Assembly (NCBI RefSeq): GCF_003946095.1
Contig: NZ_RHOD01000022.1
Location: 1 to 33,367, forward strand
Direction: 5' to 3'
Length of the DNA: 33,367 bases
DNA from: Levilactobacillus lindianensis
Lineage (GTDB): Bacteria; Bacillota; Bacilli; Lactobacillales; Lactobacillaceae
Under the pieces are notes generated by a model. The model made no database searches. It saw nothing but the letters and a program-made list of their open reading frames with translations, and was not told the DNA's origin. The position numbers were made by a program, and so were the translations under genes. Below are positions 2,321 to 20,663 of this stretch, in pieces (position 1 is the stretch's first letter; each line of letters starts with the position of its first letter).

Positions 2321-2481
2321 CGCCTCACGGGCGTCAGCTAGGGGGCTGGAACGTGGTGGGCACGACTTGAAGCCTTTCAAAAAGCGAAAGTCTACAAGCT
2401 CGGCCTTGTTGTAACCGGGGAGGGGCACCCCGCTAACAACAACGTCATCACTGAGCCCCCTAGCTGACGCCCTCCGGCTGA
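2321..2481 (-). repeat. Structured repeat family, copy A
   Basis: A perfect 19-bp inverted repeat (2329-2347 with 2454-2472) encloses a core shared with the other copies. Read on the minus strand: a first hairpin with TTAGC opposite GGTTA, then a second hairpin with AGAC...GGCTT, then GTGCCCACCACGTTCC. The GCC-GGA/GTGA-GGC bases outside the arms form the conserved purine-rich internal loop. The arm sequence is unlike that of copies B, D, E and F. Confidence 0.75.
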
Positions 2482-2592
2482 GATTGGTCATCAAGTTTAC
2501 TGGGTGGGACTGGCGACAAGAGACAGGGGATGACCGTTACCGCTGTGGTGTGGCGTGACCGTTATTCAAGACGCGTGAGGTTTTCGTTGGAT

Positions 2593-2617
2593 TTTACAAT
2601 ATTAACGACGTTGTAAA
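2593..2617. promoter_or_regulatory. Operator-like inverted repeat
   Basis: Perfect 7-bp arms TTTACAA and TTGTAAA separated by 11 bases in an AT-rich patch about 400 bases before the membrane protein gene at 3011. Its size and spacing would suit a dimeric repressor. No regulator can be assigned. Confidence 0.3.
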
Positions 2618-2770
2618 TAACGTGATAGTCTATGACTTCTCGTTGATGCGTACCTACCCGTCAATTGATCACTGCCGACAACCTTGATCCCGATAATTAC
2701 TTGACGGGAAAAACGGGAACAATTGGAGTGTTGCCAGACCTCCTCTGTTTCCAGAGTGGCTAGTATTAGG

Positions 2771-2922
2771 CCTGGAGGGAGGTTCCGTACATGCTCAGTG
2801 GTGTCGTTCTCGTTGGCCGAGGTTTCTCACTCGGTTTACGAGAAGACCGGCTTTTGAGACGTCCCTTGGCTCAAAACCGTGTCCACTACGTTCCAGCATG
2901 TACGGAACCTCCCGGAAGGCGA
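2771..2922 (+). repeat. Structured repeat family, copy B
   Basis: Perfect 19-bp arms (2777-2795 with 2895-2913), sequence unrelated to copy A, around the conserved core: GTGTCGTT, first hairpin (TTCTCG...CGAGAA), AGAC...GGCTC second hairpin, then GTCCACTACGTTCC. Outside the arms, GCCT-GGA pairs with GGA-AGGC, keeping the GGA/GGA internal loop. It lies about 90 bases upstream of the gene at 3011. Confidence 0.8.
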
Positions 2923-3010
2923 GGATTTCTGCAACCAGATCGTTTAGCACCAACTTTATTTGATATTTCACTGCAACAACGCAACAGAGAAGAGATAGGG
3001 GAGAGGACTC

Positions 3011-4657
3011 ATGATTAAGTGGTTCAGAGACAAACTTCACGAGCGTAATCTGCAGGTACTGGGGCTATTTACGGTGATTGGGGCCTTTATCATGACCTTC
3101 TGTTCCTATACCTCACCGGCCTTTTATTTCGACACCTCACCCGACAACAATGCCTTCTTCACGGTGGGGAAGGCCATGATGCATGGCATCGTGCCCTACA
3201 AGGACATCTTCGAACAGAAGGGCCCCTATGTTTACCTGTTGCACGGGTTGGCTTATCTGGTGTCGTCACGAAGTTTCTTATTAATCTTTATTGTCGAAAT
3301 TATCACGCTAGTCGCCGCGATGTTTCTGGTCTACCGGTTGGCAGGTTTGTTGGGAACCCCGGCACTCCCAGCTCTATTGACGGGGATCCTGGTACCGAGC
3401 CTGTTGCTGTACCACCCCTACTATGATTACGGGGATACGGTGGAATTCTTCACGTTGCCGCTACTGATATCGTTGGTTTACTTCATGGTTAAGCTCGACC
3501 GGAACCAGCTAAATGGGAGCCGCGGTGGGTATGCCGCACAGGGGGCCATCGTTGGGGTGGTTCTGCTGTCAAAATATACCCTGCTAGGAGCGTGGATCGT
3601 CTTCTACCTCCTGTTGATGGGCCGGCTCGTCGTGACTAAGCGGTGGCGGGAGCTGGGCAAGCTGGTGGCGTGGAGTGCGATTGGTTTTCTTGCCACCACG
3701 TTGCCTTGGCTGATTTACTTCCTGGCGACCGGGTCGTTGGGGGCGTTCATCAACGTTTATGTATTGTTCAATACCCACGTCTACCTGACTTCATCGGTGG
3801 CCTTCTTTGCCAACCTGGTTCAGTCCACGACATTGGTTTCGCAATTCTATCTGAGTAACGTGATTTTCTTTGGCTTAGGCATTATCGGGACGTTGGTCGT
3901 GATGTTTCAACCGGCCATCTTCCACGATCCATTCATGCGGGGGACTTATCTATTAACCAATTTAGGTGCCGATCTGTTTGCCCTCTATGGCTACCAGGCC
4001 AACGCCGTTTATCAGTATTATCAATTGATTTATTTTGCGTTCTTCATTCTGCCCTTCGTTTACCTGTGTCAGTGGGCGTTTAAACGGGTGCCACTGCCGA
4101 CGGGGGATGCGCCGTTTCCGATTCTGGCGACGCTGGTATTTAGCCTTCTACTGGTGCTGGGGGTCAATAACAACGTGACGGATTCTAAGGTCTTCCCGAA
4201 TAATTCGGCAATTACGGAGGCCGCCACGACCCGGCCGCAACAGCCCGCGCAGGTGGTCTTTGGTCGTTTGATGCGAGCGGAGACACCGGCCGATACCAAG
4301 TTGACGCTGTTGAATTACGGGTCGATCGACATGGGCTTTTACACCGCGTCCGGCGCGGTACCAAACACCTACTATTTCCAGAATTACAACATCTCGCAGA
4401 GTGCGGCCCCACAGATTTTGGCGTCGCAACAGGCAGTCATTCGCGATAAAGACGTCGAGTGGGTCGTGTTAAACACGCCAGTAGGCAAGACCGTTAAGCA
4501 GTGGCCCGGCGTAGCGGGACGGATCAGCAGTGGTGATTTGAATCCCGGCACGGCCAAGATGGCTAAGATGCTCCTCAAGCGATACCGGCCCGTGGCCCAG
4601 CACTCCCAGATCTTTGAAGGGGTGAACGAAACCTATTGGCTGTTCAAACGGCGGTAG
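3011..4657 (+). CDS. Polytopic membrane protein, GT-C glycosyltransferase-like
   Basis: 548 residues with about ten to twelve hydrophobic segments over residues 15-385 and a soluble C-terminal part of roughly 150 residues. Early in the protein the stretch DTSPDNNAFFTVGKAMMHG, followed by VPYKDIFEQKGP, matches the first extracytoplasmic loop of GT-C enzymes (ArnT/PMT/GT39 group), where an Asp binds the metal or lipid-phosphate sugar. Such proteins move a sugar from a polyprenyl carrier onto teichoic acid, lipid or protein outside the membrane; the acceptor here is unknown. The ATG at 3011 follows GGGGAGAGG. The gene stands alone: repeat copy B is upstream and the guaB promoter downstream. I see no terminator directly after it. 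Confidence 0.7.
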   Translation: MIKWFRDKLHERNLQVLGLFTVIGAFIMTFCSYTSPAFYFDTSPDNNAFFTVGKAMMHGIVPYKDIFEQKGPYVYLLHGLAYLVSSRSFLLIFIVEIITLVAAMFLVYRLAGLLGTPALPALLTGILVPSLLLYHPYYDYGDTVEFFTLPLLISLVYFMVKLDRNQLNGSRGGYAAQGAIVGVVLLSKYTLLGAWIVFYLLLMGRLVVTKRWRELGKLVAWSAIGFLATTLPWLIYFLATGSLGAFINVYVLFNTHVYLTSSVAFFANLVQSTTLVSQFYLSNVIFFGLGIIGTLVVMFQPAIFHDPFMRGTYLLTNLGADLFALYGYQANAVYQYYQLIYFAFFILPFVYLCQWAFKRVPLPTGDAPFPILATLVFSLLLVLGVNNNVTDSKVFPNNSAITEAATTRPQQPAQVVFGRLMRAETPADTKLTLLNYGSIDMGFYTASGAVPNTYYFQNYNISQSAAPQILASQQAVIRDKDVEWVVLNTPVGKTVKQWPGVAGRISSGDLNPGTAKMAKMLLKRYRPVAQHSQIFEGVNETYWLFKRR

Positions 4658-4680
4658 GCATTTAACAAGTGACGCGAAGA

Positions 4681-4735
4681 GAACTATGATAGTTCAATGA
4701 GAGTCCTTGACCTGAGTGGCCTAGACTGGTAAATT
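4681..4735 (+). promoter_or_regulatory. guaB promoter with upstream inverted repeat
   Basis: TTGACC at 4707 and TAAATT at 4730 are separated by 17 bases, and TGG before the -10 makes it an extended -10 site. A perfect short inverted repeat, GAACTA-TGA-TAGTTC (4681-4695), lies just upstream of the -35 and could be an operator. I see no guanine riboswitch in the leader of about 60 bases. Confidence 0.6.
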
Positions 4736-4785
4736 TAAAAACAATATCTCCCAGGATTCCTAACCGAGCCTGAGACTAAAATTAA

Positions 4786-5943
<1,158 letters not shown>

Positions 5944-5954
5944 CTTGTTTTACT

Positions 5955-5988
5955 GGAACCGGCTCTTTAAGCGGGTTCCTTTTCTTTT
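5955..5988 (+). terminator. guaB terminator
   Basis: GGAACCGGCT pairs with AGCGGGTTCC (one mismatch), followed by TTTTCTTTT, just after the guaB stop codon. Confidence 0.85.
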
Positions 5989-6003
5989 AGTCTAAATTGG
6001 GCC

Positions 6004-6182
6004 GCCGCAGGTGGCCAAGGGTTCCGTCCTGTGGGGCACGGTGAAAGCCTGAGGGGCGGTCTCTCACCTCGCTTTAAGCCTCACCAAAAGCGTGAGTCTT
6101 AAAGTCGTCCCAGGCTGTAAGGCCGGAAGCCCACCGACCAAACAGCCTCGACACGGGACTCCACCCTTAGCTACCTGTGGCT
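6004..6182 (-). repeat. Structured repeat family, divergent copy C
   Basis: The arms (6004-6033 with 6152-6182) pair imperfectly over about 30 bases. Read on the minus strand, the core keeps GTGTCG, a first hairpin AGGCTG-TTTG...CTTA-CAGCCT, a second hairpin CTTTAAG-AC...GG-CTTAAAG, and then GTGCCC, so the architecture of the other copies is kept with other base pairs. It has one extra hairpin (TGAG/CTCA) before GTGCCC. The arms contain AAGGGT-GGA-GTCC opposite GGAC-GGA-ACCCTT, the same GGA/GGA internal loop. Confidence 0.65.
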
Positions 6183-6372
6183 AGAACTGGTCTTTGAAGG
6201 ATAGGTTTGCCAGAAGATCGGAACTCGCAAACCTATTTGGGGGAGCTGGTGATTTCGTCATGTTGTTGAGAAATTGGTATTTTCGGGAATGGGTAATATC
6301 AAGGACATTTGGACAGGGCAACTTAAGACTTTGACGCCAGACCACCAGAGTTCCCATAACGCACTGTGTCGC

Positions 6373-6525
6373 GCAACCTTTCGGCTGACAGGGCTCAGGT
6401 GTGTCGTTAGTCTTGGCCGGGTGGGTTTCCTGGCTTAGACTAAGGCCGAGCTTGTAGACTTTCGTTCTTTGAAAGGCTTCAAGTCGTGCCCACCCCGTTC
6501 CAGTCCCTGTCAGCTGAGAGGTTGC
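6373..6525 (+). repeat. Structured repeat family, copy D
   Basis: The outer arms (6373-6393 with 6505-6525) match at 19 of 21 positions. The core has GTGTCGTT, first hairpin TTAGTCT...AGACTAA, a second hairpin nearly identical to that of copy A (CTTGTAG-AC...GG-CTTCAAG), and GTGCCCACCCCGTTCCAG. No plausible gene overlaps it. Confidence 0.75.
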
Positions 6526-6716
6526 GGGGTTCTCGACCAACGCTGCCGATTTAAAAAGTTTAAGCGTCACTTCGGACCACTGGGTTGAAAAGACTTATCA
6601 AGGCCTTAAACAACGGGTTGGCGGAGGGCCGGTAAATAGTGTAAGATTAAGGAATGGTTAAGTGCCTTACGCCCGACTAAAGGTTCGGGTTTTGACGTCG
6701 CCTCGCGGGATATTTT

Positions 6717-6776
6717 TGCTAGAATAGACTTAAAGTACCCTTGGGGGGCAACTGCTAGTGACCTAACCTAGCTGTT
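6717..6776 (+). promoter_or_regulatory. Promoter and leader hairpin of the two-component operon
   Basis: Extended -10 site TGCTAGAAT at 6717-6725. A TTGACG occurs upstream at 6692 but 22 bases away, too far for a normal -35. Within the leader, AACTGCTAG (6750-6758) and CTAGCTGTT (6768-6776) form an inverted repeat with one mismatch just before the AAAGGAGAA ribosome binding site, so it may also affect translation. Confidence 0.5.
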
Positions 6777-6795
6777 AAAGGAGAATAAACCGAAT

Positions 6796-7485
6796 ATGAA
6801 AATTTTAGTTGTCGATGATGATAAGGAAATTGCACAGTTACTTGAAATTTACATTAAAAATGAAGGTTACGAACCCTTGACCGCATATAACGGGAAGGAA
6901 GCATTGACCAAGCTCCACACGACACCAGACATTGCCTTGATGATTCTGGATATCATGATGCCTGAGATGAGTGGGATTGAAGTTGTTAAGGAAGTTCGGA
7001 AGGACTCCCAGATTCCAATTCTGATCCTCTCGGCCAAGACCGGCGACATGGACAAGATTCAAGGGTTAATCACTGGGGCAGACGATTATGTTACCAAGCC
7101 GTTTAACCCCTTAGAAGTCATGGCTAGAGTGAAGTCGTTGTTGCGGCGGAGCCAAGACCAAGTGACCGATGATGCCCCAGATATCTTGGATATTGGGACG
7201 TTAACGATTAACAAGGATTCTCATGAGGTCAAGACGATTGCCGGTAAGACGATCTCTTTGACCGCGCTTGAATTTGGGATCTTGTATCTGTTGGCGAGTC
7301 ACCCGAACCGGGTCTTCTCCGCCGATGAGATTTTCGAACGCGTTTGGCGGCAAGAGAGTATCGTGTCGGCCAAGACCGTCATGGTACACGTGAGCCACTT
7401 GCGTGATAAGATCGAAGACGCCACCAACGGCGAGAAGGTCATTCAAACCGTTTGGGGTGTCGGCTACAAGATTGAGTCACACTAA
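6796..7485 (+). CDS. OmpR-family response regulator
   Basis: 229 residues. The receiver domain (about 1-118) shows the acidic cluster DDD at 7-9, phospho-acceptor Asp52 in ILDIMMP, Ser79 and Lys101 in TKPF. The C-terminal winged helix (about 128-228) contains LTALEFGILYLLASHPNRVFSADEIFERVW and ends VIQTVWGVGYKIE, typical of OmpR/PhoB DNA-binding domains. It resembles VanR/CroR-type regulators of cell-wall stress, though this cannot be fixed from sequence alone. It is first in a cluster with a histidine kinase and a D-Ala-D-Ala carboxypeptidase, so it probably reports on wall synthesis. RBS AAAGGAGAA before ATG. Confidence 0.93.
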   Translation: MKILVVDDDKEIAQLLEIYIKNEGYEPLTAYNGKEALTKLHTTPDIALMILDIMMPEMSGIEVVKEVRKDSQIPILILSAKTGDMDKIQGLITGADDYVTKPFNPLEVMARVKSLLRRSQDQVTDDAPDILDIGTLTINKDSHEVKTIAGKTISLTALEFGILYLLASHPNRVFSADEIFERVWRQESIVSAKTVMVHVSHLRDKIEDATNGEKVIQTVWGVGYKIESH

Positions 7486-7506
7486 TCAAGAAGATCGAGG
7501 ATAAGC

Positions 7507-7560
7507 ATGTTACAGTTTAAAAATTACCGTTTATCGGGACACGGGGAGGCGCGACCATGA
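7507..7560 (+). CDS. 17-codon ORF coupled to the histidine kinase gene
   Basis: An ATG at 7507, five bases after GAGGA, opens a 17-codon frame whose TGA overlaps the kinase ATG as ATGA. The product (MLQFKNYRLSGHGEARP) has no recognisable function. It may serve only to bring ribosomes to the kinase start, or be a relic of a longer kinase N-terminus lost by frameshift. Confidence 0.35.
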   Translation: MLQFKNYRLSGHGEARP

Positions 7561-8732
7561 AGCTAACCACCCGGGAGAAGAGTGCGCTCTTCATGGAAGG
7601 GGTCGTCACCGTGATTCTCCTGTTGATGCTGAACCTGGCGTTGCTGGTGCTCATCATCCAGGCCATTGAGACCAATCCCGGTTTGCGAGACGGGATCTTC
7701 ATTATTAAACGCTCCGTGATGTTTGGTCCTAACAACTTCCAGTTGTGGAGTTGGGAAAATCTATTCATTGGATTGATGCTGATTGCGGATGCCCTGGTTG
7801 TTTGGTGGCGTCTGATTCGGCGTTACCGGCAAATGCAGCTCCGTCATATCATTGGCGAACTTCATTACATCGCCAACGGTCACTTCGATCACCGGATTCC
7901 ATTTCGGGTGAGTGGTGACGTCCAACGGGTTGTGGATTCCGTCAACGCGCTGGTAGATTCCGTTATCAGTTCCATGGATGAGGAACGGGCGATCGAGAAG
8001 TCTAAGGACGAGCTGATTACCAACGTGAGCCACGATATCCGGACGCCATTAACGTCGATTATCGGCTATCTGGGGCTCATCGAGGACCAGCAGTATCACA
8101 GTGAGGAAGACCTCCTCAAGTACACGCACACGGCGTTTTTGAAGTCTAAACAGATGAAATCCTTGGTGGATGACCTCTTTGAGTACACCAAGGTCCGTCA
8201 GACCGATACGCCGCTCAGTATTACCAAGATTGATTTAGCCGCCATGTTGGAACAACTCGCCGCCAGTTTCGAGCTGGAGGGGAAGAAGAAAGCCATGACG
8301 GTGGGGGCGTCGAGCACGCCAGACACTCTGATGATGGAGGCCGACCCCGAGAAATTGGTGCGGGTCTTCAATAATCTGGTCGCCAATGCCTTGAAATATG
8401 GGACCGGCGGTAGTGAGATTAACCTGATTGCTAAGCAAGTCTCGCCCGACGAGTTGGAAGTCCGCGTGACCAATGATGGCCCGAAAATCCCGAAGGAATC
8501 TCTGGCTCTCATCTTCGAGCGGTTCTACCGCGTCGAGGAGTCGCGGTCCAAGGAGACCGGGGGAACCGGGTTGGGATTGGCCATTGCGCAGAGTATTGTG
8601 GCGCTTCACGGTGGCTACATTTACGTGGAGTCGGATGACCAGTTGACCAGCTTCGTGATTCATTTACCCGTCAAGCATGACCACCCGTTGGCCATTCCTG
8701 AACGGTTACGCACAGCAGAAAAGACAAAATAG
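7557..8732 (+). CDS. Membrane sensor histidine kinase
   Basis: 391 residues. TM1 is about residues 13-36, followed by an outside loop of only about 30 residues, then TM2 about 67-85. HAMP-like helices (about 90-145) lead to the H-box NVSHDIRTPLTSIIGYL with phospho-acceptor His159. The ATP-binding domain has the N-box NNLVANALKYG, G1 VTNDGPKIP, F-box FERFYRVEESRS and G2 GGTGLGLAIAQSI. The short sensor loop is typical of kinases that sense membrane or wall stress in the bilayer or through a partner, as in VanS-like and intramembrane-sensing kinases. GGGGAGG precedes the ATG. It is partner to the regulator at 6796. Confidence 0.92.
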   Translation: MKLTTREKSALFMEGVVTVILLLMLNLALLVLIIQAIETNPGLRDGIFIIKRSVMFGPNNFQLWSWENLFIGLMLIADALVVWWRLIRRYRQMQLRHIIGELHYIANGHFDHRIPFRVSGDVQRVVDSVNALVDSVISSMDEERAIEKSKDELITNVSHDIRTPLTSIIGYLGLIEDQQYHSEEDLLKYTHTAFLKSKQMKSLVDDLFEYTKVRQTDTPLSITKIDLAAMLEQLAASFELEGKKKAMTVGASSTPDTLMMEADPEKLVRVFNNLVANALKYGTGGSEINLIAKQVSPDELEVRVTNDGPKIPKESLALIFERFYRVEESRSKETGGTGLGLAIAQSIVALHGGYIYVESDDQLTSFVIHLPVKHDHPLAIPERLRTAEKTK

Positions 8733-8739
8733 TATCAGC

Positions 8740-8754
8740 GTCGGCCTGGCCGAC
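8740..8754 (+). promoter_or_regulatory. Small GC-rich hairpin between kinase and dacA
   Basis: GTCGGC-CTG-GCCGAC sits in the 53-base gap before dacA. There is no T run, so it is not a classical terminator. It may tune processing or read-through within the operon. Confidence 0.35.
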
Positions 8755-8785
8755 ACTACATAAGATAAGAGGAGTTTTAAATCTC

Positions 8786-10114
8786 ATGAAGAAACAGTTA
8801 CGGCAAGTTATGATTGGACTGGTGACGGCGGTGACGCTGGTTACCGGTGGGTTAAGTGGTTTGGGTGCCAGTGCACCGGTTGTGGCGCAAGCGGCAACGA
8901 GTGCGACCAGCACGGTGAACCTGCAGGCAAAGGCTGGAATTGCGGTCGATGCCAAGACGGGTCAGATTTTATATGACAAGAACAGCGACAAGGCCTTACC
9001 AGTGGCCTCGATGACCAAGCTATTGTCGATTTACCTGGTGCTCCAGGCCATTCACAATGGCAAATTAAAGTGGGACCAAAAGATTACCGTCAGCAAGGAC
9101 GTAGCCAAAGTGGCCAAGGATACCAAGTTATCCAACGTGCCTTTGCGGGCCGGTCACAGTTACACGGTCAAGTCCTTGTACCAAGCTTCCTTGATTTACT
9201 CGGCTAATGGGGCCGTTGAAGCCCTTGGGAGTGCCGTTGCTGGTTCCCCCCACGCCTTTGTCACGCAGATGAAGGCTCAAGCTAAGAAACTCGGGATGAC
9301 CAACGTTAAGATTTACAATGCCTGTGGGTTAACCAACAAGCAAGTTGGTAACCTCGGCTACTCAGATGTAGCGGGTTCTGCCGAAAACGAATGGTCCGCC
9401 GCCGACCAAGCCAAGTTGGCCGTGGCCTTACTGAACAAGTACCCCGAAGTCCTTGAAACCACGAAGATTGATAAGTTGTGGTTTGAGAAGGGCACCCAGG
9501 ATGCCACGAAGATGGACAACTGGAACTGGATGTTGAAGGGGCTTACCGCTTCTTACAGCAAGCTCCACGTTGATGGGTTGAAGACGGGGACGTCCGATGC
9601 CGCCGGTGCCAACTTTACCGGGACCTCCGATCATGATGGTAACCGGATTGTGACGGTGGTGCTGCATGCTTCCCACAAGTCCGAAACCGACCCAGCGCGT
9701 TTCCAACAGACGCAGAAGATGATGTCTTACGTTTACAATAACTTCAAGACGGTGAGTTACCAGGCCGGCGACCAGATCAAGGGTGCCAAGAGCATCAAGA
9801 CCAACGACGCCAAGGAAAAGACAGCCAAGACGGTCTTGGGCCAGGACGTTAAGCTCTGGATTCGAAACGACCAGGTTGCCAGCAACGTTTCCGCTAAGCC
9901 GCAATTAAAGGCTAAGTTGGAAAAGAACAAAGCATTGGAAGCCCCAGTCAAGAAGAATGCCACAATTGGGACCGCTAATGTTGCCATGAAGGGTGACCAA
10001 TTAGGGTTCTTGGGAAATACCAAGACCACTAAGGTGCCGCTGAAGGTCACGCAAGCCGTGGAAAAGGCCAATATCTTTGTCCGCGTCTGGCGGTCAATTG
10101 TTTCACTGTTTTAA
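8786..10114 (+). CDS. dacA: D-alanyl-D-alanine carboxypeptidase (PBP5/DacA type)
   Basis: Removes the terminal D-Ala from peptidoglycan pentapeptides outside the membrane and so limits cross-linking. 442 residues: a signal peptide (about 1-37), then the peptidase S11 domain with all three active-site motifs: SMTK (Ser75 nucleophile, Lys78), SAN (Ser139-Asn141) and KTG (Lys266-Gly268). A PBP5 C-terminal beta domain follows. The last about 18 residues (KANIFVRVWRSIVSLF) form the amphipathic helix that anchors this family to the membrane. It lies 53 bases after the kinase gene with no terminator between, so it is probably the third gene of the operon. RBS GAGGAG. Confidence 0.94.
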   Translation: MKKQLRQVMIGLVTAVTLVTGGLSGLGASAPVVAQAATSATSTVNLQAKAGIAVDAKTGQILYDKNSDKALPVASMTKLLSIYLVLQAIHNGKLKWDQKITVSKDVAKVAKDTKLSNVPLRAGHSYTVKSLYQASLIYSANGAVEALGSAVAGSPHAFVTQMKAQAKKLGMTNVKIYNACGLTNKQVGNLGYSDVAGSAENEWSAADQAKLAVALLNKYPEVLETTKIDKLWFEKGTQDATKMDNWNWMLKGLTASYSKLHVDGLKTGTSDAAGANFTGTSDHDGNRIVTVVLHASHKSETDPARFQQTQKMMSYVYNNFKTVSYQAGDQIKGAKSIKTNDAKEKTAKTVLGQDVKLWIRNDQVASNVSAKPQLKAKLEKNKALEAPVKKNATIGTANVAMKGDQLGFLGNTKTTKVPLKVTQAVEKANIFVRVWRSIVSLF

Positions 10115-10140
10115 CCCCAGCTAATCCTGAGATAAGTTTT

Positions 10141-10175
10141 ATCGCCGATCCCTACGGGGATGGGCGATTTTTTCG
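10141..10175 (+). terminator. dacA terminator
   Basis: ATCGCC-GATCC pairs with GGAT-GGGCGAT around a CTACG loop, followed by a T run. Confidence 0.8.
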
Positions 10176-10198
10176 GGTTAGAGATCGACATTTGTTGC

Positions 10199-10324
10199 AT
10201 GAGATTTAATGAAAAAAGGCTTTCATTTGCGAGAGAATGGGCGTTAGCTTTCAGTAAACTAGGCTGGATAAATCCCGATATTACAGACTTTTTAAGGTTA
10301 AAGTCTGATGAGTCTGTACTGTGA
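10199..10324 (+). CDS. Possible 41-residue ORF or gene remnant
   Basis: An ATG-to-TGA frame between dacA and the YhgE gene encodes a protein-like sequence, beginning MRFNEKRLSFAREWALAF and ending LRLKSDESVL, with even amphipathic spacing. There is no ribosome binding site and no clear promoter, so it may be the end of a lost gene. The rest of the 390-base gap holds only the dacA terminator and the next promoter. Confidence 0.25.
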   Translation: MRFNEKRLSFAREWALAFSKLGWINPDITDFLRLKSDESVL

Positions 10325-10417
10325 AACATTTTCTTTAATCGATCGCATAAGCCGTGAAAACCAGTAATGACAAGGGATAAGACCGATTTTAGGGATTGTC
10401 AATGGCCTGTTGCATTT

Positions 10418-10459: not shown

Positions 10460-10506
10460 TTAGCCCGTATTTTGAGGAATTTTAAAGGAAAAGGGAGTTG
10501 AAACTC

Positions 10507-13422: not shown

Positions 13423-13436
13423 TAACGACTCGCTGA

Positions 13437-13473
13437 GAAGCGACGTGAGACCGCTGGTTTCGCGTCGCTTTTT
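13437..13473 (+). terminator. Terminator of the YhgE/Pip gene
   Basis: AAGCGACG pairs with CGTCGCTT, with an inner GAGACC/GGTTTC stem, followed by TTTTT. Confidence 0.85.
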
Positions 13474-13476
13474 GCG

Positions 13477-13482
13477 TATAAT
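13477..13482 (+). promoter_or_regulatory. -10 box of the GNAT gene at 13512
   Basis: Consensus TATAAT immediately after the preceding terminator; no clear -35. A transcript starting about seven bases on would leave the ATG at 13491 almost leaderless, which supports ATG 13512 as the true start. Confidence 0.5.
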
Positions 13483-13511
13483 AAAGGGGTATGAGAAAAG
13501 GGGACTTTAGA

Positions 13512-14018
13512 ATGAGTATCCAATTTCGGCAAGCCAAACGCGCCGATTTATCATTGATTGTGGCTATTTATAATGAAGCGGTGACCACCAAACAAAGCAC
13601 GGCGGATGTTCAGCCGGTGACGGTGGCACAACGTGAAGCTTGGTTCACGAGCTTTAATCCATTGCGCTTCCCACTGTGGATGATTGAAAACGAGGGCCGA
13701 GTCGCGGGATTCGTCGGCTTAGAGCCCTATAGCGACCGCGCTGGTTACCGGCACGTGGCTGAGTCGGCACTCTACCTGGCTAGCGACCAACAAGGCCAGC
13801 ACATCGGCTCACAGGCTGTTGACTGGATTGCCCGACAAGCCCCTAAGCTGGGACTGACAACGGTGATTGCCCGCATCTTTGGTCACAATACAGCCAGTCG
13901 GAAGCTCTTCACAAAGGCCGGTTACGCGCAGTGGGGCCATTTGCCTGAAATTGCCGAAATGCCAGGATTTACAGCCGATCTGGAAGTGTACGGGCGTCAT
14001 TTCACGACGACAGATTAA
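13512..14018 (+). CDS. GNAT N-acetyltransferase, PAT-like
   Basis: 168 residues from the ATG at 13512, preceded by AGGGGA; the ATG at 13491 is the other option. The layout matches phosphinothricin/methionine-sulfone-type acetyltransferases (PAT/YwnH group): IRQAKRADL-like start, IYNEAV at residue about 20, then WMIENEGRVAGFVGLEPY, ESALYLASDQQGQHIGSQ with the acetyl-CoA loop (QQGQHIGS), and ARIFGHNTASRKLFTKAGY near the end. These enzymes acetylate small amino compounds using acetyl-CoA in the cytosol; the substrate here is unknown. It appears to be monocistronic. Confidence 0.85.
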   Translation: MSIQFRQAKRADLSLIVAIYNEAVTTKQSTADVQPVTVAQREAWFTSFNPLRFPLWMIENEGRVAGFVGLEPYSDRAGYRHVAESALYLASDQQGQHIGSQAVDWIARQAPKLGLTTVIARIFGHNTASRKLFTKAGYAQWGHLPEIAEMPGFTADLEVYGRHFTTTD

Positions 14019-14228
14019 AAAGCAATGAAAGTTATGAAAACTTGCTGGGTAACTTCACAAACGATTCATAGATCCTAGCTGGATCAGGGATAACCCTTGA
14101 TAAATATCATAGATGTTATATGAAAATGGTCTGAAACATGTTAAAATATCATCGTGTGGTTTTACGCGTAAGTGGTAAATCCATTAACGTGCTTCATATC
14201 TCAGAGTATTCGACGGAGGCAGACATTC

Positions 14229-15032
14229 TTGAATAAACGACGGCCAAACCCCAAGCAGGTGCCAGACCCCACAGAACCAATGTGGCGGTCGACCTTGCGG
14301 GTAGCCATGCCCCTTAACTTGAGTTACATACCTATCGGGCTGGCTTGTGGGATTTTGCTACACGCGGCAGGGTTTAATACATTCCTTACTGGATTAGTTT
14401 CACTGCTGGTCTTTTCTGGTGGGGGTCAATTTTTAATTGCCACGATGTTGACTATTAATTCCCCATTACTTTCAATTGTTTTAATGCTGTTTTTCTTGGA
14501 ACTTCGGTATGCACTACTAAGTTCGAGTCTATCGCCTTACTTAAAGGGCCAATCCAACCGCTTTCTCTTTATTTTTGCGGTTTCGTTAAACGATGAAAAT
14601 TATGCGATTAATTACTTAAAATTCGCCACGGATAAGAAGTGGACGGTGCGAGAGGCCTTAGCGGTCGAGCACTACTCGCTACTTTTTTGGGCGACGAGTA
14701 ACGTTATCGGGAGTCTGATCGGTAGCGCATTGAAGATTGATTTGACTGTTGTGCATTTTGCACTGACGGCTTTGTTCCTCTACATGATTGTGATGCAACT
14801 CAAGAGTCATTTGACCCTATTGATTTGCTTCATCTCGGCAATTTTAGCGGCCGCTTTCATGATGATTACCAAGAGTACCTTGGGCCTCGTGATTGCGACG
14901 GTTGTCTCATCCTTGATTGGGTTTGCTTTAGAAGAATTCATTCAGAGAAAGATGCCGGACAGCCATTGGTTACGCCGGATACACAGTCCCGGATCAAAGA
15001 AATCAGCCGTGGAACATTCAGACGCTAATTAG
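14229..15032 (+). CDS. azlC: AzlC family amino-acid exporter, large subunit
   Basis: 267 residues from TTG at 14229, nine bases after GGAGG; the frame is open upstream to 14172 but without a ribosome binding site. AzlC with AzlD forms the branched-chain amino-acid (and azaleucine) exporter of the LIV-E family. Visible are about seven hydrophobic segments and the family motif region SYIPIGLACGILLHAAG...SLLVFSGGGQFLIATML, followed by ELRYALLSSSLSPYLK. The C-terminus is basic and cytosolic. azlD follows 17 bases downstream. The exported substrate cannot be told from sequence. Confidence 0.88.
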   Translation: MNKRRPNPKQVPDPTEPMWRSTLRVAMPLNLSYIPIGLACGILLHAAGFNTFLTGLVSLLVFSGGGQFLIATMLTINSPLLSIVLMLFFLELRYALLSSSLSPYLKGQSNRFLFIFAVSLNDENYAINYLKFATDKKWTVREALAVEHYSLLFWATSNVIGSLIGSALKIDLTVVHFALTALFLYMIVMQLKSHLTLLICFISAILAAAFMMITKSTLGLVIATVVSSLIGFALEEFIQRKMPDSHWLRRIHSPGSKKSAVEHSDAN

Positions 15033-15049
15033 GATGCAAGGAGAGCTAT

Positions 15050-15394
15050 ATGAGTGCAGTTAATAACTGGAACAGTACGCAACATTTTTGGCTAATTATT
15101 TTTGGATTTGTTGTCGCCTTCATTCCACGTTTCGTGCCGCTGATGTTATTCACCAAGCAGGCCATTCCCGAGTGGTTTAACGAATGGATGAAGTTTGTGC
15201 CGACGTCATTGTTTACGGCGCTAGTGGTTAAGGACATCTTTATCGATAGTTCCAGCTATGCTTTGATTCTGAATAATTACGCGCTGATGATTTCAGCAGT
15301 AATGGTTATCTTCGTTGCTTATCGGACACGGTCGATGGTCGTTTCCGTTATTGTTGGGCTGGCTGGGGTATTCCTCCTGTCGATGTTCCTTTGA
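15050..15394 (+). CDS. azlD: AzlD family small subunit
   Basis: 114 residues with four hydrophobic helices, the usual size for AzlD. The PRFVPLMLFTKQAIPEWFNEWMKFVPTSLFTALV stretch is the conserved core of the family. AAGGAG precedes the ATG and the gene follows azlC by 17 bases, so the two are co-transcribed and form one exporter. Confidence 0.88.
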   Translation: MSAVNNWNSTQHFWLIIFGFVVAFIPRFVPLMLFTKQAIPEWFNEWMKFVPTSLFTALVVKDIFIDSSSYALILNNYALMISAVMVIFVAYRTRSMVVSVIVGLAGVFLLSMFL

Positions 15395-15419
15395 CACTAA
15401 TTTAACGAATAAATCAGAT

Positions 15420-15452
15420 GAGGTTTGGCAGTTATGCTGGGCCTCTTTTTTG
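15420..15452 (+). terminator. azlCD terminator
   Basis: GAGGTTTGGCA pairs with TGCTGGGCCTC using several G-T pairs, followed by six T residues. Confidence 0.75.
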
Positions 15453-15674
15453 ATCTGGTATACGATAAAATCAGTTTAAAATATAATTATCATTGTTATT
15501 AGTTTTGAATCGAAACCATTTGAATTGGCTCAACTATAACACGTTCTGTCTGGCAGGGATACTAGAGATGAAAATCAGGAACAATGGTTAAGTGGCTCGT
15601 CAGTTTGGTCGACAGAAGTGTTGTGATCAAGGTGGAAGTGCAGTAAGTATTTGATTGCAGTAGAAGAGGTTTTC

Positions 15675-15903
15675 ATGGCACAACCGATTTCAATCAAACT
15701 CGATGACGAGATAGATCGGCTACTCACAGCCTATACGCAGGCGCACGGAATCACTAAGTCAGCTTAAAGTGGTTTCAACTAACTTAGAGGATTGGATGAC
15801 GGTCCAATCCGCCGACGAAACCTATCAATCCTGGAAAGCCGATAATTTTAAGACTAAGCCTTGGCTGGAAATGTTGGCGATGTTGGAACGAACCGACAAA
15901 TAA
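15675..15903 (+). pseudogene. Frameshifted ribbon-helix-helix antitoxin remnant
   Basis: From ATG 15675 (AGAAGAGG upstream) the frame reads MAQPISIKLDDEIDRLLTAY, then TQAHGITKSA and a stop at 15765. This is the N-terminal half of a RelB/DinJ-like ribbon-helix-helix domain. A second frame (15766-15903) continues with LEDWMTVQSADETYQSW and ends LEMLAMLERTDK, like the C-terminal, toxin-binding part. A frameshift near 15762 splits the two. No toxin gene follows: a terminator and the convergent cfa gene come next, so the system looks dead. The stretch 15453-15674 before it holds nothing I can name. Confidence 0.7.
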
Positions 15904-15915
15904 AAATTCAGATCA

Positions 15916-15962
15916 AAAAAGCATCACTCACCTGGTGATCAATCCAGGTAGGTGATGTTTTT
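15916..15962. terminator. Bidirectional terminator between azl side and cfa
   Basis: A long stem, GCATCAC-tc-ACCTGG with CCAGGT-a-GGTGATG, has A residues on the left and T residues on the right, so it can end transcription from both sides. It serves cfa on the minus strand. Confidence 0.85.
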
Positions 15963-16001
15963 AAGTCGGTCGAATGATCCGCGGTCATTCTGGCCAGTTG
16001 A

Positions 16002-17204
16002 TTAGTCCGTTACTTTTGATTTATCGTGGGTCTCATCGTACATGTAGTCCCGCGTCATTGGTAACATCCGGGCTGAAGGGCCCTTTGAGATCAAATACTG
16101 AATCACGTCAATATTACCAGACTTGAACGATGCTGCGCAAGCCTGAAGATAAAGATCCCACATCCGAACGAAGCGCTCGTCAAACATCTTGGCAACTTCA
16201 TCACGGTGTTCGTTAAAGTTCTTATCCCAAATTTCTACCGTCTTTTGGTAGTGACGGCGAAGGGGTTCCATATCATCGATCTGCAAACCATTCTCGATGA
16301 TGTGGGTGGTGTTTTCAATCAGGCCAGGCACGTAACCACCTGGGAAGATCCATTTGTTTAACCAACCATTGTTGGCGCCACCCTGTTGACGGGTAATCCC
16401 GTGGATTAAAGCGACACCGTCGTTCATCAGATACTTTTGAACACACTTGAAGTATTGGCCTAGGTTTTCCTGACCAACGTGTTCGAACATCCCCACGGAG
16501 GTGATGTAGTCCCACTTTTCGTTACCAATTTCACGGTAATCTTCCAACCGGACTTCGGCGACGTCTTGGAGGCCAGCTTCTTTAATGCGAGCATTCACGT
16601 AGTCGTATTGTTCCTGGCTCAGGGTAATTCCGGTGACGTGCAGGCCATATTCCTTGGCCGCCGTCAGCATCAGAGTTCCCCAACCACAACCAATATCGAG
16701 AAGTGTTTTACCCGGTTGGGGGTTCAGCTTCTTGATGATGTGGTGAACTTTATTAACCTGTGCGGTATACAAATCATCATCGGGTGATTCAAAGTAGGCA
16801 CAGGAATAAGTCATGGTGTCATCCAGCCATAACTTGTAAAAGTTATTCCCAATATCGTAATGGTCTTGCACGTCGGACTTGCTTTCCTTGACCGTGTGCT
16901 TTTGTTTTGGCAGGAAGTGGATAAACTTCTTGTTATGGAAGAAGGAATCCGTGTTTTCGTAGGCCGCAGTGATCAGGTCTTCGATGCTGCCGTCGACTTC
17001 AATTTTACCGTCCATGATGGCTTCGCCCAACGCAATCGAGGCGTTGCTGGAGATTTCCTTGATCGGAATCGCTTCGTGGAAGGTAATGGTGATGTCGGGA
17101 GTGCCAGTCCCATAGACATCGCTGGATCCGTCCCAATAGTTGACGCGGACGGGGATGTTAAAGGTGTGGCTTAGAAACGTCTTGTAGAATGTTTTTTCAA
17201 GCAT
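16002..17204 (-). CDS. cfa: Cyclopropane-fatty-acyl-phospholipid synthase
   Basis: Adds a methylene group from S-adenosylmethionine across the double bond of membrane phospholipid acyl chains, as in acid and stationary-phase adaptation. 400 residues from ATG at 17204, preceded by AAAGGA; the frame extends to 17234, inside the palindrome, with no ribosome binding site there. An N-terminal lipid-binding domain (about 1-100) is followed by [25 protein letters not shown] and the SAM-binding loop LLDIGCGWG (DIGCGWG at 170-176), with the bicarbonate/active-site region VGMFEHVG and GGYVPGL further on. It converges with the azlCD side and diverges from the gene at 17417. Confidence 0.95.
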
Positions 17205-17221
17205 GACAGGGGTCCTTTCCG

Positions 17222-17249
17222 GTTTTTCTACCATATATGGTAGAAAAAC
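17222..17249. promoter_or_regulatory. Perfect 28-bp palindrome in the cfa leader
   Basis: From GTTTTTCTACC to GGTAGAAAAAC, centred on ATAT, every base pairs with its mirror position. On the minus strand it lies between the cfa -10 box (17264-17269) and the cfa ribosome binding site, at roughly +10 to +37 of the transcript. It may be a repressor operator that blocks the polymerase, or an RNA hairpin that controls translation or stability. Confidence 0.65.
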
Positions 17250-17263
17250 AAAATTACCTTTTT

Positions 17264-17269
17264 ATTATA
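17264..17269 (-). promoter_or_regulatory. cfa -10 box
   Basis: TATAAT on the minus strand; a weak TTACGT lies 18 bases upstream as -35. A stress or alternative promoter is possible but not visible. Confidence 0.5.
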
Positions 17270-17344
17270 CGCCTTTCACCTAGGATGACGTAAGGAAAGG
17301 ATTCGGATGAAAACGGTTAATCGGGATTTTGGTCGGGTGGACTC

Positions 17345-17383
17345 GGTAAAATTGACCGATTTACCCGCTAAGCATGGTATAAT
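17345..17383 (+). promoter_or_regulatory. Promoter of the gene at 17417 with inverted repeat
   Basis: Extended -10 TGGTATAAT at 17375-17383; TTGACC lies 20 bases upstream of the -10. An inverted repeat GGTAAA...TTTACC (17345-17364) brackets the TTGACC and could be an operator. Confidence 0.55.
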
Positions 17384-17416
17384 GAGGCTACAATTAACCA
17401 GCGGAGGTCTTTCATT

Positions 17417-18292
17417 TTGAAAAAATGGGTATGGGTCGTAGCGACAGTCGTTGTGGCACTGCTGATTGGTGGTTACGCTTATTCAAATCATCATGCGACA
17501 GCTAAGGAGTACCAAGCAGCGATGGCCAATGGCCGGACTGCTATTCAAAGTAAGCATTATACGCAAGCAGAGAGCTATTTCCAAAACGCCCTCAAGCGGC
17601 GTTTGAATGACGAGTCAGCGCAGACGTATCTGACGCAGACGCAGCGGTTCGTTTCCGGGGAAAATGCATTGGATGCACGGCACTTTACGACGGCTCGTAA
17701 GCATTATGAAGCCGTTAAGGATACCAAGAAAGGCTCGTCGGTCCTGGTGACGCGGGCCACGGCGAAGGTCAAGCAAGTTAAGGGTATTTTGGCCAACGTT
17801 AAGGAATTCAAGAAGATTTTGACCAAGGCCACGGGTGAGAATCAGGCCCTGAACTATGGTCAGTCGAATACAACCTTGGACGAATTATTTAACAACGCGA
17901 AGTTCCGTCAGAAGTATTACCAGAACCTTTATGACCAGGCCTTGGCATTACGGAAGTCGAACAACGCAGGTCAAGCGGCTAACACGAGCTCTTCAACGAG
18001 TGCCTCGTCGAGTGACAGCACCGCCAATAGCTCTAGCGCGTCCCTGACGTCGTCCGAACAGGCGGCCGCAAGTAATTACTCCGGAAGTAACGAATACACC
18101 GTCACACAGAAGCAGAAAGAGGTTAACGGTAAGTTGATTACCGCCGCCCAGATTGCTAATGCTAGAAAGACGATCAGCGCGGCCGGTGGCCATTCAGATG
18201 CCATGAGTGACCAAGACGTGCGGGTTGCCATCCAACAAGCCAGCAAGCAAAAGATTTCGTTGGCACAATACACCCAACAGAACTTAAAGTAA
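17417..18292 (+). CDS. Membrane-anchored helical (TPR-like) protein
   Basis: 291 residues from TTG at 17417, nine bases after GGAGG. An N-terminal membrane anchor (about 4-22) leaves the rest outside. Residues about 30-105 show TPR-like helix pairs (GRTAIQSKHYTQAESYFQNAL, then GENALDARHFTTARKHYEAV), a pattern of protein-protein contact. A helical stretch follows to about 180, then a Ser/Ala-rich linker (about 183-223) and a conserved-looking C-terminal module (VNGKLITAAQIANARKTISA...SDQDVRVAIQQASKQ) of about 65 residues. I do not recognise a named family. The build suggests a surface scaffold or lipid/wall-linked adaptor. Confidence 0.65.
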   Translation: MKKWVWVVATVVVALLIGGYAYSNHHATAKEYQAAMANGRTAIQSKHYTQAESYFQNALKRRLNDESAQTYLTQTQRFVSGENALDARHFTTARKHYEAVKDTKKGSSVLVTRATAKVKQVKGILANVKEFKKILTKATGENQALNYGQSNTTLDELFNNAKFRQKYYQNLYDQALALRKSNNAGQAANTSSSTSASSSDSTANSSSASLTSSEQAAASNYSGSNEYTVTQKQKEVNGKLITAAQIANARKTISAAGGHSDAMSDQDVRVAIQQASKQKISLAQYTQQNLK

Positions 18293-18299
18293 ACGATAT

Positions 18300-18334
18300 G
18301 AGAACCCAGACGATAGTGTCTGGGTTCTTTTTTT
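18300..18334 (+). terminator. Intrinsic terminator
   Basis: Perfect 11-bp stem AGAACCCAGAC/GTCTGGGTTCT, then seven T residues, right after the stop at 18292. Confidence 0.9.
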
Positions 18335-18442
18335 CGCGCATATAATATGGTGGGGCGTGACTGGAAGTCTTCTAGGTGACGCCTTGCGGATAACATAGTG
18401 GTTGGTTATCACAATATCAAAGCATTTGAGGTTAGCTGCGTT

Positions 18443-18596
18443 AGCCGGAGGTCGGTTCTGGAAATGCTCAGTGGTGTCGTTGTCCTTAGCGGAGTGGTCT
18501 GCTCCGGTTAGGACAAGGCCGCTCGGGGAGACCGCTCTTTGGCTTCCCGACGTGCCCACTACGTTCCAGCGTTTCCAGAACCGACCGGGAGGCGAG
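18443..18596 (+). repeat. Structured repeat family, copy E
   Basis: 154 bases from AGCCGGAG to GGAGGCGAG. The arms GGTCGGTTCTGGAAA and TTTCCAGAACCGACC pair perfectly. The core has CAGTGGTGTCGTTGTCC, first hairpin with TTAGC opposite GGTTA, second hairpin (TCGGGGAG/CTTCCCGA), and GTGCCCACTACGTTCCAG. Copy G on the other side of the ROK gene differs at only about five positions, in the same direction. Confidence 0.85.
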
Positions 18597-18913
18597 AACC
18601 AACGACTAACTAGCAGAAAAAATTGCCGTATGCGAGTCAAGCTGATCGATTTGGTAGGAAAACTTACCATATCTATCCAAACAGTCTTAAAACTTGACAT
18701 GATGGTAAGGTTAGCAAACAAATAAGTTAGTAAGTTAATTACTTTACCTGCGGGATATCTAGGTAAATTAATTGTCCTAATCGCCGTCGTTTCGGTATTT
18801 CTGATAAGATTGTGAACTCAAAACTTCGAATATTTCACAAGTCATTATTTACACTAAATTGGTAAGGGTGTCTTACTATATAGATAGAATCAGAAATCTA
18901 CAAGGGGGGTAGA

Positions 18914-19023
18914 GCAACGCTGCCTCTGAAAATAGCTGGGTGAGCACCGATCTTGGGGGATAGGGCGACCTGAACTGATTTGATTCCCAAATCACCACAA
19001 GGCTATTGGGGACGTGGCGTTGC
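18914..19023 (+). promoter_or_regulatory. Possible structured leader of the ROK regulator
   Basis: Nested helices can be drawn: GCAACGC (18914-18920) with GCGTTGC (19017-19023), inside it AATAGC (18931-18936) with GCTATT (19002-19007), and inside that a hairpin TGATTTG/CAAATCA (18976-18994). The closing strand ends ten bases before the likely start ATG, which has no strong ribosome binding site, so the fold could control translation. I do not recognise a riboswitch class. The preceding stretch 18597-18913 holds TTGACA (18694), AT-rich DNA and short GGTAA/TTACC inverted repeats but no clear gene. Confidence 0.4.
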
Positions 19024-19032
19024 CAGAAAATT

Positions 19033-20217
19033 ATGATTATCAACAAACATATCATGCGTACGACGAATGAAAAGCAAGTTTTACAACAGATTGTCAACGC
19101 TGGTCCGATTTCGCGTAGTCAAATTTCTCGTAATCTGAGTTTAAATAAAGTGACGGTCTCTGATATTTATAGCCAGTTACTGCATGAAGGGTTGATCCGT
19201 GAGGTTGGTCACGGTGTCAGCACGCGTAACGGTGGACGGAAACCAGTCATGGCATTACTAAACGTGGGGTATGGTTATGTCATCAGTATTAACATTTTGC
19301 GGTCACGGTTCTCGATGATCACCAGTCGTTTGGACGGTCGTTCTGAGAATTACGCGAGCGTCTCAACGCGTGGTGTGGATTTAACCACGGTACTCGACAT
19401 GATTGATGAGAAGATCGCGGCGACGGTCTCCGATAGTGATACTCGGCTCTTAGGGATTTCGTTCGGGTTGGATGGTACTATCTACGACAACCAGATCCTA
19501 GATTCCACGTTGAAGGGCTTCAAGAACTTTGATTTGGCGAAGTACTTTAGCGATAAATTCCAAGTTCCCGTTGTCCTGGAAGATTTGGCTAATCAGTCAG
19601 CGATCTTCGAACGGGACTTCTCCGGCGAAGGTGTTTACCGCAACTTAATTTCTGTGACGATTAGAGATCAAGTGAGTGCCGGAATTATCACCGAAGGCCA
19701 CCTGTATCGCGGCCACAATGGTGAGGCCGGAAACATTGGGACTTGTCCGTTAGCCGACCGTTACCAGGAGGGCAATTCCGAAACCGTCAACCACTATGTG
19801 GCAGAAGGCACGGTGCTCCAACGCATCATGGCTTACCAGAAGATTGACCGGGTCGATGTTAACCGGATTCGTCGGGATTACTTGGGTCACCGGCCAGAAT
19901 TGTTGGCCATTCTCGACGAGTTTGCCTACTACCTGGCTAAGGTTTTAGGGAACCTGTCCAACACGTTTGCCCCAGATGCCATCATCGTCAATGCTCCAAT
20001 CCTGGAGTTGTTGCCAGAAATGATGGATACTGTGCGGAACTACGTGGACCAATTGGCCATTGTTCGCAAGGCGCCACTCCTGTTGACTAAGAACTCACGG
20101 GAAGCTTCCTTAAAGGGCGGGGCTTCGGCGATTATTCACCGGGCCTTGGCGCTGGACGACTTGCAATTGACCTTCACCAATGAACGGACCACCGTTCTCG
20201 AAGGTGTGGAGTCCTAA
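19033..20217 (+). CDS. ROK-family transcriptional repressor
   Basis: 394 residues if the start is ATG 19033; the frame is open from TTG 19006 and ATG 19051 is also possible, none with a strong ribosome binding site. The N-terminal winged helix (about 10-75, ISRSQISRNLSLNKVTVSDIY then NGGRKP) precedes a ROK sugar-kinase fold: LLGISFGLDGTI, VVLEDLANQSA, and GHNGEAGNIGTCPLAD in place of the usual GExGH region with the CxCG zinc site. The zinc motif is degenerate and the catalytic Asp context altered, so it is a sensor, not a kinase. XylR/NagC-like sugar-responsive repression is likely; the sugar and targets are not shown by the neighbours. Confidence 0.85.
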   Translation: MIINKHIMRTTNEKQVLQQIVNAGPISRSQISRNLSLNKVTVSDIYSQLLHEGLIREVGHGVSTRNGGRKPVMALLNVGYGYVISINILRSRFSMITSRLDGRSENYASVSTRGVDLTTVLDMIDEKIAATVSDSDTRLLGISFGLDGTIYDNQILDSTLKGFKNFDLAKYFSDKFQVPVVLEDLANQSAIFERDFSGEGVYRNLISVTIRDQVSAGIITEGHLYRGHNGEAGNIGTCPLADRYQEGNSETVNHYVAEGTVLQRIMAYQKIDRVDVNRIRRDYLGHRPELLAILDEFAYYLAKVLGNLSNTFAPDAIIVNAPILELLPEMMDTVRNYVDQLAIVRKAPLLLTKNSREASLKGGASAIIHRALALDDLQLTFTNERTTVLEGVES

Positions 20218-20233
20218 ACAAAATAGATTTTAG

Positions 20234-20259
20234 AAAGCGTGGATGCGGCCACGCTTTTT
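20234..20259 (+). terminator. Terminator of the ROK gene
   Basis: AAAGCGTGG pairs with CCACGCTTT around ATGCGG, followed by T residues. Confidence 0.9.
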
Positions 20260-20289
20260 ATTTTGCCTTCAGGTTTTTGTCGGGGTCAG

Positions 20290-20445
20290 TGCCTCCCGGA
20301 AACCAGCCAGGAGGCTGGAACGCAGTGGGCACGACTTGGGGCCTGTAAACCGGTCTTCAAGCTCGGCCTTTCCGTAACCCGAGAAAGACCACTCGACTAA
20401 TGGAAACGACACGGCTGAACCTCCTGGCTGGTTTTCTCCGGCTCA
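20290..20445 (-). repeat. Structured repeat family, copy F
   Basis: The arms 20300-20316 and 20418-20434 pair with one mismatch and differ from those of copies E and G only 70-100 bases away. On the minus strand: GTGTCGTT, first hairpin TTTCC...GGAAA with TTAGT opposite GGTTA, AGAC second hairpin, GTGCCCACTGCGTTCCAG. Opposite orientation to E and G. Confidence 0.75.
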
Positions 20446-20509
20446 CTCTATCCTATCTTGTCAAAGTAGGATGGCTCATCTTCATGATTTGATAGGTTAT
20501 GACTATGTT

Positions 20510-20663
20510 AGCCGGAGGTCGGTTCTGGAAATGCTCAGTGGTGTCGTTGTCCTTAGCGGAGTGGGTTACTCCGGTTAGGACAAGGCCGTTCGGGGAGACC
20601 GCTCTTTGGCTTCCCGATGTGCCCACTACGTTCCAGCGTTTCCAGAACCGACCGGGAGGCGAG
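20510..20663 (+). repeat. Structured repeat family, copy G
   Basis: 154 bases, about five differences from copy E, in the same orientation. Three changes cluster in the first hairpin loop and two are C to T in or beside the second hairpin. It ends about 30 bases before the -35 of the next gene. Confidence 0.85.

Follow-up and report, generated by a model that had tools for sequence, protein, structure and literature searches.

Inverted pairs of palindromic repeats are already known. Bacterial interspersed mosaic elements (BIMEs) are believed to function at transcription-unit boundaries, and EFAR elements of Enterococcus faecalis, mostly of ~170 bp with two stem-loops, integrate at hairpin-forming targets and keep parts of the target stems in their termini. 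EFAR, of enterococci, is named among bacterial miniature inverted-repeat transposable elements (MITEs) in the excerpts consulted of one account (PMC3733652). Here, we analysed a stretch of 33,367 nucleotides of Levilactobacillus lindianensis (contig NZ_RHOD01000022.1; “the window”), in which seven intergenic copies of an element with complementary arms had been noticed from the letters alone and guessed to be a structured RNA or a hairpin mobile element; both alternatives survive our analysis. The family is genome-wide rather than local. In our reading, to which we give a rough probability of 0.6, it is a large non-coding family of paired, hairpin-rich intergenic elements of Lactobacillaceae with a MITE-like mobile origin, the folded halves of which are now retained by the host.

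All seven copies (A to G) exist where the original prediction had placed them, to within a few bases, with C, as modelled, beginning at ~5996-6004. They are real but not independent, as A/B, C/D and F/G form pairs of a (-) followed by a (+) copy, and the place of E is occupied by a full pair in the close species G013. In the following list, copies are given as halves of such units and scored with a covariance model (R1) built from 14 two-hairpin copies (alignment A2).

Copy A, 2322..2477, (-) strand: two-hairpin half, left in A/B, with its outer end at 2322 and its inner end at 2477; 149.4 bits with R1 over 2323-2477.
Copy B, 2771..2920, (+) strand: two-hairpin half, right in A/B; 138 bits over 2772-2919, arms 19/19.
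Copy C, 5996..6188, (-) strand: three-hairpin half, left in C/D; 34.9 bits over 6004-6180, aligned with other three-hairpin copies.
Copy D, 6371..6528, (+) strand: two-hairpin half, right in C/D, with diverged outer ends; 119.3 bits.
Copy E, 18445..18592, (+) strand: two-hairpin half, now solo, the orthologous site in G013 being a full pair; 159.8 bits, three-species alignment.
Copy F, 20292..20441, (-) strand: two-hairpin half, left in F/G; 137.3 bits.
Copy G, 20512..20659, (+) strand: two-hairpin half, right in F/G, 97% identical to E; 157.4 bits, direct repeat D1.
A/B spacer, 2478..2770, no strand: 85% identity to G013 vs 95% in the halves; no promoter-like site in a consensus scan.
C/D spacer, 6189..6370, no strand: 84% identity to G013 vs 94% in the halves; no promoter-like site in a consensus scan.
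F/G spacer, 20442..20511, no strand: 74% identity to G013 vs 94% in the halves.

Read in the + direction, a typical two-hairpin half opens with the end GCCGGAG or similar, a ~19-nt 5' arm, CTCA, GTGGTGTCG and hairpin 1 (TTAG opposite GTTA), and continues with AAGGCCG, hairpin 2 (AGAC opposite GGCT), GTGCCCAC, CGTTCC, the 3' arm and the end GGGAGGC or similar. The halves (148-193 nt) are multi-branch folds, in which a ~19-bp stem closes an internal loop, beyond which a short stem leads into a multi-branch junction bearing two or three hairpins. Complementarity of the arms within a copy is far above chance, with 19/19 in A (2329-2347/2454-2472), 88% over 26 nt in B (2770-2795/2895-2920, including one 19/19 stretch) and 95% over 19 nt in both E and G. 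That arms are unrelated between copies does not hold as a general rule, since E and G are 97% identical and members of a sub-family share their arms. The core motif GTGCCCACNNCGTTCC (at most one mismatch) is present six times in the window, once in every copy except C (0.04 occurrences expected from shuffles). Copy C is a divergent form that lacks this motif and has an additional third hairpin of the AGACC...GGCT type, as other copies also do.

The covariation is overwhelming, in agreement with the earlier claim that pairing is kept while the sequence changes. Among 137 matches, fitted to the model in an alignment that favours structure, 94.5% of the cells were paired (67.6% when shuffled, at most 47.6% with partners slid), two-sided changes were found at 49 of 52 pairs and the covariation score reached 0.617 (0.174 in shuffles, at most 0.113 with partners slid). 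A MAFFT alignment of the 14 copies agrees with this result (96.3% paired, score 0.596 vs 0.198). Strong covariation speaks for two divergent small structured RNAs, each half being an RNA gene begun in the spacer with its sense strand outward. The same holds for the conservation of paired sites in place described below and for the observation that G-U outnumbers A-C in the outward strand when copies are compared with each other (255 vs 31 in the best 95 of 137 rows), where ~121 of the 255 G-U come from two columns with a standing G-U. However, changes between orthologs show no such excess (12 G-U vs 11 A-C), spacers are less conserved than halves in 8/8 units, the A/B and C/D spacers offer no promoter-like site, and the matching halves, 71 in one genome and 134 in another, would be many for one RNA gene, so that we consider a pair of small RNAs unlikely. 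Strand specificity, suggested by the across-copy excess and weakened by the ortholog changes, is not claimed and, given the ratio of 12 to 11, neither is RNA over DNA. The complementarity of the arms might also be kept by template switching (palindrome correction) instead of selection, given that two-sided changes greatly exceed one-sided ones at most pairs and that some patches, judged by eye, alter several bases together. This process would leave the conserved loop and junction motifs, the across-copy G-U excess and the low in-place rates at paired sites unexplained, and we regard it as very unlikely.

Copies were compared in place between L. lindianensis (G000) and two close species (G013 and G020), where most comparable sites are common to all three. 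Twelve units were chosen from the sites matchable to G013, leaving aside three lone halves, namely E, L178 1548 and L178 14541 (the last partly deleted in G013). The same copy was retained in ten of the twelve orthologous units, and the halves of these ten were 95.0% identical over 2857 positions. The spacers of eight retained units reached 81.1% over 1291 positions, each of the eight below its own halves. Four-fold degenerate sites in 12 window genes were 74.3% (G013) and 77.6% (G020) identical, and the 200-nt flanks of all 12 units, coding and intergenic mixed, 91.5%. The lone half E differed from its ortholog in 5 of its 148 positions. Changes at single sites were counted in 13 pairs of orthologous halves that do not overlap, a set without three-hairpin halves, repeat comparisons of the same row and the two sites with replaced copies. 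Of the paired sites, 50 of 1341 had changed (3.7%), vs 73 of 613 unpaired ones (11.9%; Fisher p 4e-11). Pairing survived eight double changes and was lost in one, next to 31 single changes at pairs. As paired positions change about three times more slowly than unpaired ones, structure seems to be selected in place. In the closely related species compared, the fold is thus conserved at the site of the copy, pointing to a cellular function that has so far gone unnoticed.

These rates also bear on a purely selfish MITE, the halves of which would serve as transposase recognition ends with structure selected only at transposition. Common outer inverted ends, a recurrent unit length, 96% identical units with different flanks and the replacement of copies at two sites all fit such an element. 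Settled copies of it would be expected to drift neutrally, but here the halves lie far above spacers and four-fold sites, and paired sites are the slowest of all. Conservation of halves in place is not expected from an element recognised only when moving, and pure selfishness appears quite unlikely to us.

A mobile origin as such is part of our reading, and evidence for it comes from common ends, recurrent length, similar copies with different flanks (the 96% identical units; E and G with 97%) and turnover. The typical unit consists of two halves facing away from each other, (-) then (+), across a variable spacer, and many halves are now solo. This order was found for 21 of 22 neighbours less than 700 nt apart in the own genome and for 48 of 50 close neighbours in G018, a nearly closed relative (the other two being one (--) and one (++)), where 25 of the 48 spacers measure 45-70 nt and 23 measure 107-314 nt. 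With starts within 850 nt, G032 (19/24) and G034 (3/3) follow the same order, giving 70/77 for G018, G032 and G034 together. Short units (n=16 aligned) join halves of different types and are present in both orientations. Many units of G018 are bounded by the outer inverted ends CGCCTTACCGG / CCGGTAAGGCG, the former occurring 130 times in this genome vs 3 times for the reversed control. Among 52 close pairs from the window and from fetched stretches of G018 and the own genome, 23 have motifs resembling terminal inverted repeats (TIRs) at both ends, and 29 do not by the same patterns. Seven of the 23 doubly-ended pairs are 398-401 bp long, three measure 393, 393 and 409 bp, and 13 fall between 509 and 696 bp. 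Long units have related interiors and some share similar sequence just beyond the TIR. Their interior was rejected as a remnant gene, as none of nine had an open frame across it and three interior translations had no Pfam match. The two 96% identical units of G018 are located at 347,891 and 380,683 with flanks that differ by eye. Regarding turnover, two of the 12 chosen sites carry different copies in G013 and G020 (71-72% identity), and by eye the identity on their left side extends no further than the T-run in the terminator of the upstream gene. The E locus carries a full pair in G013, the right half alone in the window and a short remnant-like stretch in G020; two of three further differing sites that were opened are internal deletions, and the third is unclear.

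Many inverted pairs of hairpin-bearing halves between genes also recall REPINs, i.e. hairpin-forming doublets of repetitive extragenic palindromic (REP) sequences, and raise the question of movement by a REP-associated tyrosine transposase (RAYT) or another IS200-like Y1 transposase. Y1_Tnp had no match in copy-rich G018 and G020 but matches in copy-free G012 and G024, and its presence does not track that of the element across 35 genomes, leaving an IS200/RAYT link unsupported. A REPIN-type origin is contradicted by this distribution unless the enzyme was lost after the spread, and with halves of ~150-190 nt vs 20-40 nt it is highly improbable.

Single units show further peculiarities. Within the A/B spacer (window 2478-2770), a ~66-nt stretch with a CCCGTCAA...TTGACGGG inverted repeat is identical in G013, though the rest of the spacer drifts. 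Some long G018 units (e.g. L164 7311-7814) have an interior hairpin followed by a T-run that resembles an intrinsic terminator by eye. At G018:C1:334458-336466 (L157 14459-16467), inverted end motifs 2.0 kb apart surround an open reading frame (ORF) of ~420 aa, AT-rich and membrane-transporter-like by eye, possibly an acquired gene within a decayed unit. In the own genome, (-) and (+) halves 1.9 kb apart at G000:C1:34541-36759 (L014 1542-3760) flank a 480-aa aldehyde-dehydrogenase-like gene (named by eye), which is either a pair enclosing a gene or two chance solos on either side.

The covariance model and the search of lactobacillus genomes proposed with the original prediction revealed a much larger family than the window alone. 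Whole-genome searches scored at most 150 candidates, and far fewer in the family and order samples; with so few candidates scored per genome, the counts from these larger samples are lower bounds. The own genome has 12 places by Blast and 71 matches to R1 at E <= 1, spread very unevenly with 29 of them on one 157-kb contig (C1) of the 2.33-Mb genome. At E <= 0.001, 33 of 35 genomes of the genus match (none in G012 and G024, 10 in G004), and G018 alone has 134 matches. Beyond the genus, at least 93 of 301 genomes and at least 13 of 40 genera match in the family sample, and at least 22 of 395 genomes in the order sample, 22/22 of them in Lactobacillaceae. Named matching loci belong to Levilactobacillus brevis (five matches within one 21-kb stretch), L. 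angrenensis, L. enshiensis, four Companilactobacillus species, Lactiplantibacillus fabifermentans and Lapidilactobacillus gannanensis. The window's protein with an IMP dehydrogenase/GMP reductase domain is 93-94% identical to those of three Levilactobacillus loci with matches.

Neither the window nor 60 kb of G018 contained a match to any Rfam family at its curated cut-off, in line with the earlier statement that no named family has this plan, and membership in an Rfam RNA family was rejected for the stretches searched. When two stretches were searched at relaxed thresholds, one matched three unrelated animal families (E 0.47-3.4) and the other nothing. An origin from plasmids or phages was rejected as well: copy E had no match in plasmid or phage records, a long G018 unit had a single 58-base plasmid match (E 4e-3), and three viral contigs bearing the core pattern had no model match.

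Placement along the chromosome is far from even. The fetched stretches contain 82 units, 79 of them with called genes on both sides (simple longest-ORF calls of >=80 aa; ORFs <=450 nt that overlapped a unit by >30% were discarded before the count), and a single one of the 79 overlaps an ORF. They lie in 42 tandem, 25 convergent and 12 divergent regions, vs 225, 83 and 89 among all regions >30 nt, convergent regions being preferred over divergent ones (p 0.009). The outer end points toward a gene 3' end in 20 of 27 solos, some of which may have partners missed by the model, and in tandem regions in 15 vs 3 (p 0.008). Where a terminator was detected before an outer end facing a gene 3' end (35 cases), it lies 7-55 nt away from that end in 26. 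With dnaA located, the distance between it and the point opposite was divided into fifths; for G032, 113 of 119 matches were used, one on C5 having been dropped and five being absent from the listing. Counted outward from dnaA, the fifths contained 26/29/17/12/0 units in G018 (Kolmogorov-Smirnov p 2.5e-8), 24/36/12/1/16 in G032 (p 3.3e-7) and 10/11/8/3/1 in G034 (p 0.003); as all three genomes are of one genus, these results are not independent. Of the 130 end motifs of G018, 100 are listed, and only two of these lie at 0.93-1.72 Mb, a region that has no model match. The original prediction overlooked this origin-centred distribution, together with back-to-back pairing, outer inverted ends, the three-hairpin form, copy number, the occurrence in several genera and in-place conservation. 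A more tentative possibility is that the family might represent a new host-maintained class of chromosome elements of mobile origin, with up to a hundred or more paired folds that mark the limits of transcription units and cluster around the replication origin. Selection would then be for single-strand structure, which might serve either in RNA, as a 3' module, or in DNA, to organise or insulate the chromosome.

Under our preferred reading of a mobile origin with host-retained halves, units would have originated as non-autonomous mobile DNA and spread with the help of an enzyme acting in trans, settling preferentially past gene 3' ends. The folded halves might then act at transcription-unit borders, as is believed of BIMEs, either within read-through transcripts, as RNA structures, or on the chromosome, as DNA structures extruded at places where supercoiling accumulates, and the host would retain the units for this action. 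Several observations weigh against this reading. Regarding mobility, no autonomous partner with the same ends was found, one inverted TIR pair 2 kb apart having been opened in G018. By eye, none of 19 G018 units showed a target duplication; the ends of long units extend past the TIR, which leaves the true edge uncertain. Empty sites in relatives, which the original prediction had proposed to look for, did not materialise in clean form at the three differing sites opened, and a clean empty site with target duplication was likewise sought and not found in the 19 G018 units and the differing sites of the sister species. Moreover, most comparable sites being common to the three sister species makes those copies old. 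Regarding retention, two of the 12 units were replaced by other copies. The lone half L178 1548 differs at 15 of 155 positions and is only 90% identical to its ortholog. Only 42 of the 71 own-genome matches belong to (-)(+) pairs. Of the 82 outer ends directed at the 3' end of a gene, only 35 had a terminator before them that our own scan could detect, the 16 units of G032 in the fifth farthest from dnaA are off the origin-bias pattern, and the bias itself may follow gene content. Finally, the strand evidence is in conflict between the comparison across copies and the ortholog changes, and the A/B and C/D spacers were devoid of promoter-like sites in the consensus scan.

Some other genes of the window were also noted. 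No Pfam or NCBIfam family was found for the ORFs 3011-4657 (548 aa) and 17417-18292 (291 aa), and no NCBIfam family for the ORF 1328-2038 (236 aa). Two adjoining large genes (27965-29998 and 30324-32372) resemble surface proteins and match leucine-rich repeats, at scores far under the curated cut-offs, and the second one has matches to a KxYKxGKxW signal and an LPXTG anchor that exceed theirs.

Many lactobacilli, L. brevis included, thus carry an abundant structured element without an Rfam match. As structure is kept at individual settled copies, the host role of dispersed palindromic repeats becomes testable, and dozens of natural units at known loci, with solo and decayed variants, are open to deletion or comparison. 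A comparable element was not found in the open-access literature, subscription papers lying outside that search; its size, its heterotypic multi-branch halves and selection in place were not found described in the literature searched. With structured RNAs in Rfam, the family shares a conserved secondary structure with covariation, unlike them it matches no curated model in the stretches searched. Bacterial MITEs such as RUP, NEMIS, CREE, QMITE and others are similarly non-coding, with common inverted ends, many intergenic copies and stable folds, as far as the excerpts of the source consulted describe them (PMC10969869). In contrast to these, no target duplication was seen and no parent transposase found here, and structure is kept in place with compensatory change. 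EFAR, as generally described, differs in that the variable arms here lie inside conserved ends; our order-wide sample, for which membership of E. faecalis is not established, matched only Lactobacillaceae. BIMEs and REPINs, according to the portions of the sources consulted, are likewise intergenic and of high copy number, with palindromic parts in alternating or paired orientation and suspected movement in trans (PMC3116915, PMC2817692). REP sequences measure 20-40 nt (PMC3733652, in the excerpts consulted), whereas the halves described here are several times longer and have a covarying multi-branch fold, short units pair halves of different types, and presence is not tied to Y1 transposases. 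By analogy, the organisation of the family may be best read as that of a giant BIME.

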